NCBI RefSeq assembly: GCF_021389955.1
Contig: NZ_CP089980.1
Coordinates: 4,149,001 to 4,213,000, forward strand
DNA from: Fulvivirga maritima
GTDB taxonomy: Bacteria; Bacteroidota; Bacteroidia; Cytophagales; Cyclobacteriaceae
DNA: 64,000 nt
Reading direction: 5' to 3'
Positions 32,793 through 39,018 of the stretch are shown here, piece by piece (within the stretch, counting starts at the first letter, position 1; each line of letters begins with the position of its first letter). The position numbers and the translations under genes are program-made. The notes below the pieces were generated by a model. The model was given only the letters and a program-made list of their open reading frames with translations. It ran no database searches and was not told the DNA's origin.

Positions 32793-32930
32793 AAAGAAAA
32801 AGGCTGCCAAACTAATGACAGCCTTTTCTACTCCTCAACCTTCCGTTCTTCCTTCTCTAAACCAACTTCACTTCTCTTCCCTTTACCAACCGCACTTCTC
32901 TCGCTTCATTCAACTTCACTAACTAAACTA
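32793..32930 (-). ncRNA. candidate purine-rich small RNA divergent from the hybrid kinase
   Basis: Read on the minus strand, a ~138-base stretch is very poor in C and rich in G/A, with repeated GAGAAGTG[CA][GA]GTTGGT units and several GGA motifs. It is closed by a terminator: GGCTGTC/GGCAGCC (32817-32823 with 32802-32808; G-U only on this strand) and a CTTTTTCTTTT tail. Upstream is GACATTTG, 32 bases after AATTACGCA, the same promoter layout as two other units nearby. Start estimated at ~32930. A GTG-started 20-codon frame (32857-32919) with repeated REVRLV/REVKLV is also open, so a peptide is an alternative. No homolog known to me. Confidence 0.5.
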
Positions 32931-32935
32931 CATTA

Positions 32936-32984
32936 CAAATGTCCTCATTATATGGTATTTTTATTTAAGAGAAATTGCGTAATT
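32936..32984 (-). promoter_or_regulatory. promoter with AATTACGCA box, small RNA candidate
   Basis: On the minus strand AATTACGCA (32984-32976) stands exactly 32 bases before GACATTTG (32943-32936), one base from the TAnnTTTG -7 element, followed by TA. Box, spacing and the ATTTGTA continuation match the promoters at 36449 and 37419. Confidence 0.6.
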
Positions 32985-33042
32985 TGAAAATTAAGTATTT
33001 CACTTAATTGATGATTTTTAGTTTTAATTCTACCAAAAACCT

Positions 33043-35778
33043 ATGGTAAGGAGGTTATATTATGTTATCCTGATGTTTTTTTTATGCCAAAGTGCACTGG
33101 CTCAGAGGGTAATCATGGGAGTATATGAAAATTACCCACTAGTTTATACTGATGGAGTAGACCAGCCACAAGGTATTTTTGTAGATATAGCCAGGTATGC
33201 TGCTAAGCGTGAATACTTAGATTTGGAATTTAGAGTTGGCACTTTAGACCAATGCTATCAGTGGTTGGAAGCAGGAGAAATTGATGTTATAGCTGAACAT
33301 CCTGATTATAAAAACAGAGATTCCAAGTATGAAGAGCTATCTTCAGGAGTGATTTCTTCTTGGGCTCGGGTTTATGCTAAAGAGGGTACAGACTATACCT
33401 CTCTTATTGATTTAAATAATAAGAACGTAGCAGTATTAAGTAAAAGCCAATATATTAATAGTCCTTATAAGGGATTATACCATTCTTTAGATGAGCGGGA
33501 TGTAAACTGTAATATTTACCTGGCACACAGTTATCAGGATATTTTTCGGTTGCTCAATGAGAAAAAAGTAGATGCAGGAGTTATTGACAGGGTGTATGGA
33601 GATATCAATGAAGGGTCTTATGATGTGATTCAAACGCCGATTTCTTTTGCCCCTTCTCGGCTCACTTTTCTATTTCACAAAGCAGATTCGCCCAACCCTT
33701 TGGTGCCCATCATAGAGGAGCATCTGAGAGTGCTGAAAGCCGATAAAAATTCGCTGTACTATACTAACATTCGCAAATATTTTGAAAAGGACCGTACCGT
33801 AAATATTCCCTTTTGGGCATATATAGTTATGGGAGTGCTGGTGTTAGGCGTTATTCAGCTAATTATTTATGTAAAAGTGCTAAGAAGCACTGTAGCGAAT
33901 AGAACCTTGGATCTGAGAAATGCTTACGCAGATATAAAAGCCAGGCAGCAAACCCTTTCATTGATCTATAATAATGCCTCAGAGTTAATCGCCTTGTTTG
34001 AGGTACATGAAGATGGAAATATCACATTGGCCAAGTTGCCTGATTGGTATTTACAACAGCTCTATGAGGCCAATATAGATTATCCGCCATATAAGATTTT
34101 GGGTATTTCTATTCGGGAGCTTTATAAAGATTTGCTCAAGCTGGAGCAAGCGGAAATTAAAGAGCGAACTGACCGGCTGGAAAGTGTAATAAGAAACAAG
34201 CAGAATGTGGTGTATGAAGAGAATTTCAAGTCTCCAAGGGGCAATTGGGGTGTTGCGGAATCTAACCTCGTGCCTATATTAGATAAGGATAAGCATTGTA
34301 CTCATATCCTTTATGTATCCAGAAATATCACTCATCAGAAGAAGATGGTTGAGGATCTTACAGAAACCAAAAACCGACTTCAAATGGCTATTGAAGGAGC
34401 TAGAGAGGGTATGTGGGACTGGGATATTACCACTAACGAAGTGGTTTTTAATGAATACCATGCTTCCATGCTGGGCTTTACGCCTACTATGCTTAAAGGT
34501 AATTTTACTGAATTCTCTCAGCGTATTCACCCGGAAGACAGAGACAAGACCTTTTATGCCTTGATGAGTCATTTGAATAATGAATCTGACTTTTATGAAA
34601 CTGAACATAGGCTGAAGACCTATAATGATGGTTGGAAGTGGATCATGGTGCATGGTAAGGTAATGACCCGTGATAGTGAAGGGAAGCCACTTAGAGTAAT
34701 CGGTACAAATGTGGATATTCATGATCGGAAAATGGCCGAGCTTGCCCTGAAGAAAAATCAAAGACGATTGGCCACCCTCATGTCTAACCTGCCAGGTATG
34801 GTTTATAGGTGTCAAAATGATGAAAAGTGGAGTATGATTTTTACCAGTGAAGGGGCTTTGGAGCTTACAGGGTATGATTCATCAGATTTTATTAGTGGTA
34901 AATTGAGCTTTGTTAGCTTAATAGTAGATAAGTATAAAAAGGAAGTATGGAAAACGGTGCAAAAGGCAATATCCAAAAAAGAGCCTTTTACGCTGGAATA
35001 TGAGATAACCACAAAATGCGGAGAAAAAAAATGGGTTTGGGAGCAAGGGCGTGAGGTAGAAGATGGTATTTTAGAAGGCTTTGTGAGTGACATTTCAGAA
35101 CGTATGAATGCTCGCGAGAAAATTATTTCTACTATTATAGAAACAGAAGATAAAGAAAGAAAAAGAATAGCCAAGGAGCTGCATGATAGCCTGGGACAAA
35201 AACTAACCACGGTTTCATTAAACTTTAATTCTTTGAAGAAGGACCTGCAGTTGAGTGATTCTGGTGAGAAAAAGCTGAATACAGGCCTGAATTATTTAAA
35301 AGAAGCTATTAAAGACAGTAGAGAAATTGCACATAACCTTATGCCACAGAGCATAGAAGATTTTGGGTATGTGCTTTCAGTGCAAAGTTTAATGGCGGAT
35401 ATTGACAGAGTTTCAGAAACCAAATTTGAGTTTTATGATAACCTTAAAGGCGCAAGATTGCCTAAAAATTTGGAACTCCATCTTTATCGTGTTACGCAAG
35501 AGGCGATTAATAATATCTTAAAGTACGCTAAAGCCAGCCAGGCATCTGTACAGCTGATGGCTTATAATGATGAAGTAGTCCTCACCATAGAAGATGACGG
35601 CATAGGCTTTCTTTATCATGAAAAAATGGAAGATGAAACACAAAGTTTTGGATTGCGTAGCATGAAAAACCGGGTGAATTCTCTTTCCGGAAATATAGAA
35701 GTAGAAACCAGTCCGGAAAACGGAACAGTAATAATAGTAGAAGTACCCTTCAAATATGAGTATAATGAAACCAACTAG
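33043..35778 (+). CDS. hybrid sensor: solute-binding domain, three PAS domains, HisKA_3 histidine kinase
   Basis: 911 residues. Signal peptide MVRRLYYVILMFFLCQSALAQ; then a periplasmic SBP_bac_3-type domain (~22-250: YPLVYTDGVDQPQGIFVDI, AARYAAKREYLDLEFRV); a TM helix at ~258-280 (PFWAYIVMGVLVLGVIQLII); PAS domains at about 305-440, 450-570 and 580-690; then HisKA_3 with ERKRIAKELHDSLGQKLT, the phosphorylated His in ELHDSLG; and an ATPase domain (QEAINNILKYAKAS, IEDDGIGF). The small ligand is likely amino-acid-like but unproven. The ATG overlaps no upstream gene; the stop overlaps the regulator gene by 23 bp. It is the probable partner of that NarL-type regulator. Confidence 0.95.
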   Translation: MVRRLYYVILMFFLCQSALAQRVIMGVYENYPLVYTDGVDQPQGIFVDIARYAAKREYLDLEFRVGTLDQCYQWLEAGEIDVIAEHPDYKNRDSKYEELSSGVISSWARVYAKEGTDYTSLIDLNNKNVAVLSKSQYINSPYKGLYHSLDERDVNCNIYLAHSYQDIFRLLNEKKVDAGVIDRVYGDINEGSYDVIQTPISFAPSRLTFLFHKADSPNPLVPIIEEHLRVLKADKNSLYYTNIRKYFEKDRTVNIPFWAYIVMGVLVLGVIQLIIYVKVLRSTVANRTLDLRNAYADIKARQQTLSLIYNNASELIALFEVHEDGNITLAKLPDWYLQQLYEANIDYPPYKILGISIRELYKDLLKLEQAEIKERTDRLESVIRNKQNVVYEENFKSPRGNWGVAESNLVPILDKDKHCTHILYVSRNITHQKKMVEDLTETKNRLQMAIEGAREGMWDWDITTNEVVFNEYHASMLGFTPTMLKGNFTEFSQRIHPEDRDKTFYALMSHLNNESDFYETEHRLKTYNDGWKWIMVHGKVMTRDSEGKPLRVIGTNVDIHDRKMAELALKKNQRRLATLMSNLPGMVYRCQNDEKWSMIFTSEGALELTGYDSSDFISGKLSFVSLIVDKYKKEVWKTVQKAISKKEPFTLEYEITTKCGEKKWVWEQGREVEDGILEGFVSDISERMNAREKIISTIIETEDKERKRIAKELHDSLGQKLTTVSLNFNSLKKDLQLSDSGEKKLNTGLNYLKEAIKDSREIAHNLMPQSIEDFGYVLSVQSLMADIDRVSETKFEFYDNLKGARLPKNLELHLYRVTQEAINNILKYAKASQASVQLMAYNDEVVLTIEDDGIGFLYHEKMEDETQSFGLRSMKNRVNSLSGNIEVETSPENGTVIIVEVPFKYEYNETN

Positions 35779-36418
35779 AATATTAATAGTGGACGATCAT
35801 AAAGTGGTAAGGGATGGTGTAGCCATGTACCTGGAAAATAACCCGGCCTATGAAGTAGTAGGATTAGTGGCCAGTGGCATGGAGGCTATAGAGGAGGTAG
35901 GAAAGAATGATTTGGACCTGATTATTATAGATATAAATATGGATGGCATGGATGGCATAGAGGCCACCCGAAAAATAATGGAAATAAATCCTGATATCAA
36001 GGTTTTGGCCCTAACCATGCATAATGACTATCAGCATATTAAAGCCATGATGGATGCTGGCGCCAGCGGCTATGTGCTTAAGAGCTGTGATGAAGTAGAA
36101 ATGAGAGGAGCCATTGATACCATATTGAATGATGATATATATTATAGTAGTGAAGTAGGGCAGACGGTAATGAACAACCTGGCCAAGAAAAAGCCTAAAG
36201 CCTCAGGAACGGCACCTACTCCGCTTACACCAAGAGAGAAAGAAATATATAAACTCATATTAGAAGAATATTCCAATCAGGAAATCGCAGATAAATTGTT
36301 TATAAGCGTGAGGACGGTAGAGGTTCACAAAAGAAATTTATTAGAGAAAACAGGTGCGAAAAACTCTACAGGACTAGTGCTTTTTGCTATAAAAAATAAC
36401 TTGTTTGATGATATTTAA
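35756..36418 (+). CDS. NarL/FixJ-type response regulator
   Basis: 220 residues. Receiver with RILIVDDHKVVRDG and phospho-acceptor Asp in LDLIIIDINMDGMDG, Lys in GYVLKSCDEVE, and a C-terminal LuxR helix-turn-helix (LTPREKEIYKLILEEYSNQEIADKLFISVRTVEVHKRN). The start ATG 35756 lies inside the end of the kinase gene, so the pair is co-translated. NarL-type proteins bind short boxes upstream of promoters. The AATTACGCA boxes that flank this gene pair are its most likely targets. Confidence 0.96.
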   Translation: MSIMKPTRILIVDDHKVVRDGVAMYLENNPAYEVVGLVASGMEAIEEVGKNDLDLIIIDINMDGMDGIEATRKIMEINPDIKVLALTMHNDYQHIKAMMDAGASGYVLKSCDEVEMRGAIDTILNDDIYYSSEVGQTVMNNLAKKKPKASGTAPTPLTPREKEIYKLILEEYSNQEIADKLFISVRTVEVHKRNLLEKTGAKNSTGLVLFAIKNNLFDDI

Positions 36419-36448
36419 AACCTAATTAAGTGAAACGCGTAGTGCGGG

Positions 36449-36497
36449 AATTACGCAAAAAGCCTTAACATTTTTTAACAGCGTATAGATAAATTTG
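36449..36497 (+). promoter_or_regulatory. promoter with AATTACGCA box, receiver-like gene
   Basis: AATTACGCA at 36449-36457 stands 32 bases before TAAATTTG at 36490-36497, an exact TAnnTTTG -7 element. The start codon is 26 bp further on, with an AGGGAG ribosome site between them. Confidence 0.65.
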
Positions 36498-36523
36498 TAT
36501 GTACGTTGTGAATAGGGAGAATA

Positions 36524-36943
36524 TTGAAAGAGTTAAGGAATATAGCGTTTTATAGTAGGTCTAATGAGGTTTTTGATTGTTTGGATGAAGAGATTTTCCA
36601 AAGGTGGAATTTCTTTTTGGCCTCACCTGATATTGCCTCTCCAAAATTAGATAGAGTTTACAACCCTTCATTATTAATTATAGATACCTATTCTCTGGGT
36701 ATAGAGTTTCTGAATTTCATTTTTGAGCATTCCAGGTATAAAACTACGCCTGTCTTGGTGTTAGATTTTTATACTGAAAAACCATTCATTGAAAATTTGA
36801 TATATAAAGGAGCTTCAGGGTACCTATTAGTACATTCTTTTGCTGATGAACTGGATACAGCTATGTCGGCGATTTTAGAAGGAAGGAATTATGTTTCTGA
36901 CCAGTTAGAAATTTATAAGGGAAACACGTATTTAATAAAATAA
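36524..36943 (+). CDS. stand-alone degenerate receiver-like protein
   Basis: 139 residues from TTG 36524, with AGGGAG eight bases upstream. The pattern is that of a CheY-like receiver: NIAFYSRSNEVFDCL, then SLLIIDTYSLG with an Asp at the phospho-acceptor strand, TPVLVLDFYTEK, and GASGYLLVHSFADELDTAMSAIL. The early acidic pair of normal receivers is replaced by YSRSNE, and the conserved Lys after the last strand is replaced by VHS. Phosphorylation is therefore doubtful; it may be a pseudo-receiver or a decoy. The promoter carries the AATTACGCA box. It follows the regulator gene but is a separate unit, and its terminator is at 37097. Confidence 0.72.
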   Translation: MKELRNIAFYSRSNEVFDCLDEEIFQRWNFFLASPDIASPKLDRVYNPSLLIIDTYSLGIEFLNFIFEHSRYKTTPVLVLDFYTEKPFIENLIYKGASGYLLVHSFADELDTAMSAILEGRNYVSDQLEIYKGNTYLIK

Positions 36944-37031
36944 GTAAGATTGCCTATGAAATATTACATGAAGATGTGTAGGTTTGTAGTGTAATAAAAA
37001 AATAACTGATCCACAATCCAGATATTTTTTT

Positions 37032-37075
37032 AAACTAATTGACAAAGATTTTTAAGAGTAGGTTTAGGTTGATTA
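37032..37075 (+). repeat. 3' UTR motif, copy 1 of 2
   Basis: AAACTAATTGACAAAGATTT followed by TTTAAGAGTAGGTTTAGG and TTGATTA closely resembles 37601-37641 (AAACAATTAAAAATATTTAA, then GAATAGGGTTTAGGTTGATTA). Both copies end 13-21 bp before a terminator stem and lie downstream of genes that share the AATTACGCA promoter box. Confidence 0.6.
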
Positions 37076-37096
37076 ATGGTTTAGATTAATCATGGT

Positions 37097-37130
37097 AACA
37101 GTCGGGAGAGGTCCCGACTGTTCGTTTTTT
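37097..37130 (+). terminator. intrinsic terminator after the receiver-like gene
   Basis: AACAGTCGGGA (37097-37107) and TCCCGACTGTT (37112-37122) form a perfect 11-bp stem with a GAGG loop, followed by CGTTTTTTA. It is 150 bp after the gene's stop, giving a long 3' untranslated region. Confidence 0.9.
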
Positions 37131-37288
37131 ATACCTACTTGTTTTTATATCCTCCCTGGTTTTTTCCTTAAGAGCTTTCCCTTACTTCTGTAATTTCGCT
37201 TAATTCGAAGACATGTCAGGAAATGGGTGTATTTGTTACATTTATTTTGATTCCTTTTCTCTACTTTTGCCTAGTTTTTATTAATCCT

Positions 37289-37332
37289 AACTCAATTGAG
37301 TTCCTTTTTTTAATTGTGCGACCGCACAATTA
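37289..37332. promoter_or_regulatory. two adjacent palindromes in the 36.9-37.5 kb gap
   Basis: AACTCAATTGAGTT (37289-37302) is a perfect 14-bp palindrome. TAATTGTGCG/CGCACAATTA (37311-37332) is a perfect 10-bp inverted repeat around AC. Nine bases separate them. The 554-bp gap otherwise holds only the terminator at 37097 and the promoter at 37419. They may be operators; the second one is G/C-centred and could also be a hairpin with T's on its left side. Confidence 0.4.
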
Positions 37333-37418
37333 TATCTCTTCCTGTTACCTCAGCATTGAAAATCAGAGTTTTATCTAAGTATATTTTACGATAAGTAAGG
37401 GTAATCACTTACCTGATA

Positions 37419-37467
37419 AATTACGCATTTCCCCTGATTGATAAAACTTTATTCTGTTATACATTTG
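37419..37467 (+). promoter_or_regulatory. promoter with AATTACGCA box, small lipoprotein
   Basis: AATTACGCA at 37419-37427 stands 32 bases before TACATTTG at 37460-37467, an exact -7 element. TTG at 37438-37440 fits the -33 element. The start codon is 30 bp downstream. Confidence 0.7.
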
Positions 37468-37497: not shown

Positions 37498-37620
37498 ATG
37501 AAAAGAATAATAATGATGACAATCATTTGTTTAACGGCTTTCACGCTGGGGTCATGCAGCCAATATACTTGCCCCACATATTCTAAAAATGAAAACCAGA
37601 AAACAATTAAAAATATTTAA
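37498..37620 (+). CDS. 40-residue lipoprotein with CPTYSK motif
   Basis: From ATG 37498: a hydrophobic leader (MKRIIMMTIICLTAFTLGSC) ending in a lipobox-like LGSC, then the mature peptide SQYTCPTYSKNENQKTIKNI. Small lipoproteins with a YTCPTYSK-like motif just after the Cys recur in Bacteroidota, as far as I recall, but their role is not known. An in-frame upstream start at 37438 would lie inside the -7 promoter region, so I reject it. The gene has its own boxed promoter and terminator, so it is a deliberate single-gene unit and not debris. Confidence 0.75.
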   Translation: MKRIIMMTIICLTAFTLGSCSQYTCPTYSKNENQKTIKNI

Positions 37621-37641
37621 GAATAGGGTTTAGGTTGATTA
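37601..37641 (+). repeat. 3' UTR motif, copy 2 of 2
   Basis: This overlaps the last codons of the lipoprotein and continues through GAATAGGGTTTAGGTTGATTA, matching the copy at 37032-37075. The conservation crosses from coding to non-coding sequence, which suggests a selected RNA element or a recent duplication. Confidence 0.6.
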
Positions 37642-37654
37642 GTTAAGTAAAAAG

Positions 37655-37683
37655 GAGCGGTCTGATATCAGTCGCTCTTTTTT
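37655..37683 (+). terminator. intrinsic terminator after the small lipoprotein
   Basis: GGAGCGGTCTGATATCAGTCGCTCTTTTTT: GAGCG/CGCTC outer pairs and a CTGATATCAG inner palindrome with a small bulge, followed by TTTTTTC. Confidence 0.75.
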
Positions 37684-37812
37684 CATTTTAGACCCTTTAC
37701 TTAACTCTGGTACGCGAAATACGTATTTTTTGAAATAAGACCCTACCCTTAAGAAAAGCTGCTTTTTACTCCCCATCTTTGTGTTGTTATTGTACTTAAA
37801 CCTAAATGAAGT

Positions 37813-37911: not shown

Positions 37912-39018
37912 ATGAGTATAACCACGCGAGAAGAAGAACAAGTTAATCTGACTAATGAATGTATTCACTTATTAGATGGCCTTAATGATGGCCTTCTGTG
38001 GGTAAATAAATTTGGAGACATAGTACAGGTAAATGCTGCTTTTGTCCGTATGACAGGATATGAAAAAGCAGATATAGAGCAAAAGAAGGTATTCCTTTAT
38101 TTCAGAGAGATAAGTATGCTTTCCTGGGAGCTTTATTGGCGCAAGATGAAGGAGGGTGATAAGCCCGAGGCTGAAGGGAGAGTAGTGGATAAGGCTGGTA
38201 TTTTAAAGCCAGTGCACATTAAGTTTAATGGCATAAGTTCTAAAAGAGACCTGGCCTGTCTGGTAGTGCAGGATGTTGCCTATAATATAAGTGATAGCCA
38301 AAGGCTTAAGCGAGTGAGTTATGAATATGATAGACTCATGTATCGTACTTCCCATGATCTTAAAGCACCTATTTCTACGATTTTGGGGTTGGTAGAGTTA
38401 GTAAAGAGAGATGCTACCAGTAATCAGCGAGAGTGCCTTTCGCTGATAGAAAAAACCATAAGAAAGCAAAACGCTTTGATGGGAGATATCAATCACCTGG
38501 CCTTTATAGAATCATCTAGAGTGGTACTTGATAGGGTGGATATTGAAGCGTTAACTAAAAGCATAATTTCAGGGTGTTTAATAGATAACCCTAAAGGTTC
38601 ACAAATAGAATGGGAGTTAGATTTTAATACGAAAATCCCTTTTACTAGTGATGAAAATCTACTCAGTAAGGCGCTTTCGCCATTAATTAAAAATGCTATA
38701 GAATACAAAAGGGAAAATGCGCCTGATTGTAGAATAAGCATTCATGTTTTAATTACCGAGCAGACGCTCACGTTTAATATTGAAGATAATGGTATTGGCA
38801 TATATGAAGATCTTCATAAGAAGATTTTTGATATGTTTTATCGGGGTACAGAGCGGTCCACTGGATCAGGCCTGGGTTTATATGTATCTCTAATTACTAC
38901 TTATAAGTTAAAAGGGCACGTAGAGTTGGTAGAGTCTTCAGAGGGGAAAACAGTTTTTCAACTGGTGGTGCCAAATAAATTTTGTGTAAGAAGTAAGGCC
39001 ATATCACATGAGCTGTAA
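37912..39018 (+). CDS. cytoplasmic PAS-histidine kinase
   Basis: 368 residues, no membrane segment. PAS domain ~20-125 (LLDGLNDGLLWVNKFGDIVQVNAAFVRMTGY); HisKA with the acceptor His in YRTSHDLKAPISTILGLVEL (~148); ATPase domain with SPLIKNAIEYKREN and FNIEDNGIGIYEDLHKKIF, then GSGLGLYVSL. No receiver is attached and none follows, so its partner is elsewhere or is the NarL-type regulator upstream. The 291-bp gap before it holds a short membrane-peptide frame and an AAATACGTATTT palindrome (37717-37728). Confidence 0.94.
   Translation: MSITTREEEQVNLTNECIHLLDGLNDGLLWVNKFGDIVQVNAAFVRMTGYEKADIEQKKVFLYFREISMLSWELYWRKMKEGDKPEAEGRVVDKAGILKPVHIKFNGISSKRDLACLVVQDVAYNISDSQRLKRVSYEYDRLMYRTSHDLKAPISTILGLVELVKRDATSNQRECLSLIEKTIRKQNALMGDINHLAFIESSRVVLDRVDIEALTKSIISGCLIDNPKGSQIEWELDFNTKIPFTSDENLLSKALSPLIKNAIEYKRENAPDCRISIHVLITEQTLTFNIEDNGIGIYEDLHKKIFDMFYRGTERSTGSGLGLYVSLITTYKLKGHVELVESSEGKTVFQLVVPNKFCVRSKAISHEL

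Follow-up and report, generated by a model that had tools for sequence, protein, structure and literature searches.

GacS/GacA (BarA/UvrY) is a two-component system with a LuxR-type regulator, and the RcsAB box has a TAAG-type half-site. According to PMC4950607 and PMC2375449, GacA activates small RNA genes via an upstream palindrome of 18 base pairs (bp), TGTAAG-N6-CTTACA. As for promoters of Bacteroidota, a start-site map of Flavobacterium places TAnnTTTG at -12 to -5 (PMC9723704), and a TTTG at -33 is reported for Bacteroides (PMC7366714). Below we present an operator with TAAG-like half-sites in Fulvivirga maritima, in a stretch of 64,000 nucleotides (nt) of contig NZ_CP089980.1 (positions 4,149,001 to 4,213,000), hereafter the window. 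The stretch encodes a sensor histidine kinase and a NarL-type response regulator, and judging from sequence this regulator probably acts on two dyads at each of five promoters around its own gene, which it would thereby activate.

An initial annotation of the window had pointed to three promoters sharing the 9-mer AATTACGCA at an identical 32-base distance from a -7 element. As claimed, AATTACGCA occurs exactly three times (32984-32976 on the minus strand, 36449-36457 and 37419-37427 on the plus strand), with a gap of exactly 32 bases to GACATTTG, TAAATTTG and TACATTTG respectively, each followed by TA; 100 shuffles of the window gave 0.44 copies on average, and none reached three. In the whole genome (6.39 Mb, one contig) AATTACGCA by itself is not enriched, with 39 copies versus 34 for the reversed control, whereas box plus spacing is above chance: with the flanks of all 39 copies read, NAnnTTTG stands at gap 32 in just 3, versus 0.06 expected (P of three or more about 3e-5, for a box and gap that were picked after having been noticed). 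The clusters of related genomes keep box plus spacing, and in these loci AATTACGCA resolves into a longer tandem-dyad pattern. The box is real, but it covers only one half-site, the left one, of the second dyad in a tandem pair. The full pattern is TAMGKG-N3/4-CACKTA (dyad 1, 15 or 16 bp), a gap mostly of 10 bp, TAMG-N8-CKTA (dyad 2), 22 nt, and NAnnTTTG. Instead of three units the window has five, the complete units at 36916 and 37711 having been overlooked because their second dyad starts with TAAG.

For scoring, we used a model, R1, made of 30 sites from 11 other Fulvivirga genomes, with this genome and its nearest relative (G006) excluded; they are what was left of 38 sites found by a position weight matrix (PWM), after eight had been removed by hand as off register, at another -7 distance, or close copies. 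Operator-promoter 1, of the predicted RNA T1, lies at 32936-33006 on the minus strand, with dyad 1 at 33006-32992, dyad 2 at 32981-32966 and the -7 box GACATTTG at 32943-32936 (R1 42.8 bits, expectation value E 3.5e-10). The other four are on the plus strand. Operator-promoter 2, of the pseudo-receiver gene (36427-36497), has dyad 1 at 36427-36441, dyad 2 at 36452-36467 and TAAATTTG at 36490-36497 (31.6 bits, E 1.1e-6), and operator-promoter 3, of the predicted RNA T3 (36916-36986), has dyads at 36916-36930 and 36941-36956 and TAGGTTTG at 36979-36986 (36.7 bits, E 2.8e-8). Operator-promoter 4, of a predicted lipoprotein gene (37396-37467), has a 16-bp dyad 1 at 37396-37411, dyad 2 at 37422-37437 and TACATTTG at 37460-37467, with a PWM score of 32.2 and a partial R1 match of 16.7 bits. 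Operator-promoter 5, of a PAS kinase gene (37711-37781), has dyads at 37711-37725 and 37736-37751 and CATCTTTG at 37774-37781 (38 bits, E 1.1e-8). R1 ranks all of them except the lipoprotein unit top in the whole genome; between these four and the lipoprotein unit come C1:1750281 (E 0.0024), C1:1493708 (0.013) and C1:4374838 (0.038). A looser scan including the -7 box gave many low scores, and was relied on solely for sites seen otherwise too.

Overall, the motif, its register, its conservation and its co-occurrence with the regulator were established by computation. When operators were searched without the -7 box in 30 sources (16 cluster loci, the remaining 14 picked via R1 or a shared RNA motif), NAnnTTTG was present within 8-36 nt in 59 of 79, and at exactly 22 nt in 53 of these 59 (42 of 47 within the 16 cluster loci alone), with the orientation chosen so as to favour one that has a -7 box. 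In the alignment of the 30 sites, invariance is confined to letters of the dyad half-sites and the -7 box: spacers diverge while half-sites persist, the 22-nt spacer has no invariant column, and no conserved column stands at the place of the -33 TTTG. For the pseudo-receiver unit, the G006 and G004 versions of dyad 1 are exact reverse complements of each other, as a symmetric site permits. The -7 box reads ANNTTTG at all five window sites, with T as first base at three. With the -7 box placed as in the published map, dyad 2 extends from -50 to -35 and dyad 1 is centred at about -68; the box centre near -48 given initially is correct for the half-site, whereas the full proximal dyad centres at -42.5. 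This is the position of a class-II activator.

The operators follow the regulator through the genus. An ortholog at 59-90% identity is present in 13 of 14 relatives, G010 having just a 36% match, and the best R1 match has E of at most 4.6e-7 in all 14 genus genomes with the regulator, 11 of which had fed sites into R1 (held out are this genome, G005 and G006), versus 0.115 in G010. For the 58 family genomes outside the genus, R1 reaches at most 21.3 bits, versus 32-48.

Outside the cluster, 12 R1 matches have E below 0.01. All of these but G011:C1:720732 (E 0.006) were examined, most matches above E 0.01 being set aside, and PWM supported 10 of the 11. The common theme of these sites is signalling parts and RNAs. 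Three are upstream of YfiR-like genes (L124, L207, L211; PF13689), the known YfiR acting together with a diguanylate cyclase, while by Pfam three are upstream of genes for sigma factors of the extracytoplasmic function (ECF) type (L208, L209, L213) and two upstream of HisKA-only proteins (L206, L210). One more, L120, is upstream of a HisKA kinase gene that stands behind a paralogous regulator. The L125 site has a PAS protein 573 nt onward, and a weaker site, L214 (E 0.038, PWM 32.2), belongs to a PAS-MCP gene of this genome. The R1 matches L212, L215, L216, L218 and L220 were dropped as having no PWM support, and L217, with a PWM score of 15, was not used.

Outside Fulvivirga the evidence from sites is weaker. 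Behind a regulator of 46% identity in an Algoriphagus metagenome-assembled genome (L139) the dyads are followed by the -7-like GATATTTG, and behind one of 42% identity in a further genus within the family (L075) by the imperfect -7-like TAACTTCG, with the spacing from dyad 2 as in Fulvivirga in both; none of 1000 random windows of each locus scores as well. The dyad scores are 30.1 for L139 and 24.4 for L075, and since L144 (24.1) and L147 (25.6), among 23 other distant loci, score comparably with no -7 box in register, L075 is weak and L139 better. A metagenome-assembled genome of Saprospiraceae (L136, regulator 55% identical) has a perfect palindrome, TAGGTGATTCACCTA, with TACTTTTG one base off register, which is no more than suggestive.

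As to mechanism, each of the tandem dyads (centres about -68 and -42.5) would be occupied by one dimer of the phosphorylated regulator, and the two dimers would recruit RNA polymerase in the class-II manner to sigmaA promoters with a TAnnTTTG-like -7 box and no conserved -33. The regulator would thereby switch on its own neighbourhood, namely T1, T3, the pseudo-receiver, the small lipoprotein and the PAS kinase; binding by this regulator, activation and the transcript starts are what we infer here. The sequences are still best read, as initially proposed, as one operator common to these promoters and bound by the local NarL-type regulator, with sites in all 14 ortholog-bearing Fulvivirga genomes and placement right after regulator genes. 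A NarL-type paralog that recognises the same half-sites might bind instead or jointly, in which case the sites would serve several regulators rather than this one alone. Indeed, a search with the regulator gives 56 matches in this genome (E up to 0.001), and similar sites stand directly after two paralogous NarL-type regulators, at L120 4282-4352 before a HisKA kinase gene (L219 in G006 is alike by eye) and at L121 4709-4757 near a receiver gene. We nevertheless regard a paralog as an unlikely binder, because G010 has paralogs (37 matches) yet no operator of comparable score, and the five strong sites of this genome all surround the one local regulator. It is less probable still that the local regulator binds the same sites and represses. 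Dyad 2, at -50 to -35, extends to the -33 region on the published scale and could block polymerase, whereas the missing conserved -33, the fixed 22-nt register and the second, upstream dyad are, by general knowledge, more usual for activation. That the sites resemble one another by chance, or simply through inheritance of neutral sequence from a common ancestor, has almost no probability left: many of the compared promoters are orthologous and hence not independent, yet the same architecture precedes unrelated genes, and its half-sites stay while spacers change.

Several observations weigh against activation of all these promoters by the local regulator. Related regulators share the site type, so that specificity of the local one is only putative. 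NAnnTTTG is absent in range at 20 of the 79 operators, not all of which need be real, and the sites of the pseudo-receiver gene in G001, G014 and G008 terminate in TATTTTTA rather than TAnnTTTG. The E-values of R1 are rough, with a match at E up to 0.05 in 18 of the 58 outside genomes, and R1 has no match beside most distant regulators. The lipoprotein unit has an E of only 0.055, because of one extra base in dyad 1. Finally, no -7 box is evident for the kinase-regulator operon when site 1 is read towards its plus side, which makes autoregulation of the pair no more than a conjecture.

The protein genes of the cluster are all on the plus strand. The sensor kinase (33043-35778) had been described as a hybrid; Pfam gives SBP_bac_3, PAS, HisKA_3 and HATPase_c and no receiver domain. 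Then comes the gene of the regulator, the proposed binder (35756-36418), whose Response_reg (E 2.3e-29) and GerE (E 4.6e-17) domains, both over the Pfam cut-off, make up the NarL/FixJ architecture. Next is REC2 (36524-36943), initially annotated as a degenerate receiver: it retains the phosphoacceptor Asp and has lost the acidic pair and the Lys, and no Pfam match exceeds the cut-off. Its predicted fold has a mean predicted local distance difference test score of 85.5, with LuxR-family and RcsB receivers as top PDB matches, and by this model REC2 would be a pseudo-receiver with a fold like that of NarL-family receivers. Dyad 1 and most of the gap of operator 3 are inside the last REC2 codons (36916-36943), and dyad 2 straddles the stop codon. 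The YKGNTYL-K tail of REC2 is missing in relatives that have no T3 site.

The predicted lipoprotein (37498-37620, 40 residues) is found in six relatives, with the motif C-x-x-Y-[ST]-C-[PA]-T-Y-[ST]-K across them. Compared with G006, its gene has 4, 4 and 12 differences at codon positions 1, 2 and 3, the third changing most. The transcript would end in a 3' element, GGGTTTAGGTTGATTAGTTAAG, and a terminator (37619-37685, plus strand; z -3.5; R2 match with E 0.0064). A dispersed copy of the unit in G004 (L113 3777-3627, minus strand) has kept operator, 3' element and terminator and lost the lipoprotein frame, a hint that the RNA end matters. The last gene is that of the PAS histidine kinase (37912-39018; PAS, HisKA and HATPase_c by Pfam).

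Besides these genes, two RNAs are predicted, and we infer that both act as RNAs. T1, the RNA candidate already annotated, is a C-poor RNA of about 135 nt on the minus strand (32797-32931) that ends in a terminator hairpin, its putative start being placed from the -7 box. It has three C within the 90 nt taken as body, and its whole fold is not unusual (z -1.3). The initial annotation had missed T3, a second and much better conserved candidate, predicted as a structured RNA of about 140 nt with a hairpin and a terminator (about 36991-37130, plus strand, start likewise putative). The T3 core, with two hairpins, has z -4.6, and none of 200 shuffles is as good; it is near-identical in six genomes, with second tandem copies in three. 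A covariance model of T3 matched 7 of 15 genus genomes, with one weak match (G026, E 0.0017) among 43 others. The T1 slot, read in 13 genomes, holds a short terminator-ended RNA candidate in seven and a DUF4154/YfiR-like protein in six, all six matching PF13689. In G009 and G012 (L067 and L069, upstream of the kinase on the opposite strand), the single T1 unit gives way to three RNA units in tandem, each driven by an operator, and four of the six predicted RNAs begin with GTTGAT. At the gathering score, Rfam finds only a tRNA in the window, T1 and T3 matching no family; with E up to 0.1 allowed, L106, L110, L112, L113 and L061 yield only a tRNA and a sub-threshold match over that tRNA. A role as Csr/Rsm sponge is rejected, since CsrA (PF02599) is found in none of 38 genomes, where a control detected PF02599 in 3 of 14 named genomes, E. 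coli among them, and 11 T1-type RNAs including T1 have no GGA excess over shuffles (lowest P 0.14). In addition, neither Hfq nor ProQ is found in any of 15 genomes.

T3 and the 3' end of the lipoprotein transcript have TTTAGGTTGATTA in common, which also occurs close to the 5' end of RNAs preceded by sigma54-type promoters. TTTAGGTTGATTA may be an antisense pairing seed, but this candidate reading is weakened by similar motifs standing before terminators of ordinary genes: GGTT[AG][AG] is present in 37 of 112 pre-terminator stretches, a set biased by including the small RNAs and the loci selected for the motif, versus 207 of 4560 noncoding controls. A search for complementary sites, in cluster loci and between two genomes, gave no convincing target. 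A G/U-rich element like GGTTTAGGTTGA is often right before intrinsic terminators in Fulvivirga, ordinary genes included (L262, L265, L274 and L277 among others, a biased sample). RNAs beginning with AGGTTTAGGTTGATTA are seen at L106 2493, 7917 and 8179, at L108 1768 in this genome, and at L110 (five copies), L112 (four copies) and L113 8137, some of them arrayed in tandem close to genes that by eye resemble rpoN and asnS; in 13 of 14, a sigma54-type TGGCA-N6-TTG stands exactly 30 nt upstream of TTTAGG. Another conserved stretch, CCGATTGGGTTTAGGTTGATTA and similar forms followed by hairpins, is found in three Fulvivirga genomes (L116 2126, L119 2061, L122 2042).

Among described systems, GacA/UvrY and RcsB would be the nearest parallels. 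The TAAG/CTTA half-sites of Gac/Rsm resemble those of the Fulvivirga operators, which however consist of two tandem dyads of 15-16 bp with TAMG-N7/N8-CKTA cores, not N6, and precede protein genes as well as RNAs. RcsB/RprA is alike in that, by the title of a PDB entry, a NarL-family regulator binds a small RNA promoter, and is unlike in dyad number, gene set and phylum. With Bacteroidota sigmaA promoters the operators share the -7 TAnnTTTG but no conserved -33 TTTG, dyad 2 ending at about that place. YfiR/HmsC-like (DUF4154) proteins matching PF13689 follow the T1-slot operator in six relatives and three further sites, whereas the T1 slot of this genome holds an RNA instead. In searches of open-access literature, judged by titles, we found for this group neither a described operator of a NarL-type regulator nor a two-component system known to drive small RNAs. 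Having a precise motif with its register, regulon members over 14 genomes and a strongly conserved RNA would make control of RNA by the regulator directly testable, in bacteria where CsrA (38 genomes) as well as Hfq and ProQ (15 each) were not found, and the operator motif can be used for searching beside other NarL-type regulators. Tentatively, the system might even be a Bacteroidota equivalent of Gac/Rsm in such bacteria, though we would sooner doubt than assert it: a NarL-type two-component system that mainly produces RNAs of new families, along with components of the phosphorelay to which it belongs (pseudo-receiver, PAS kinase, HisKA-only proteins). YfiR-like genes and genes for ECF-type sigma factors would be extras of particular species, and all would be read through a single tandem-dyad code of fixed register, used in sister systems too and extending to other Bacteroidota.

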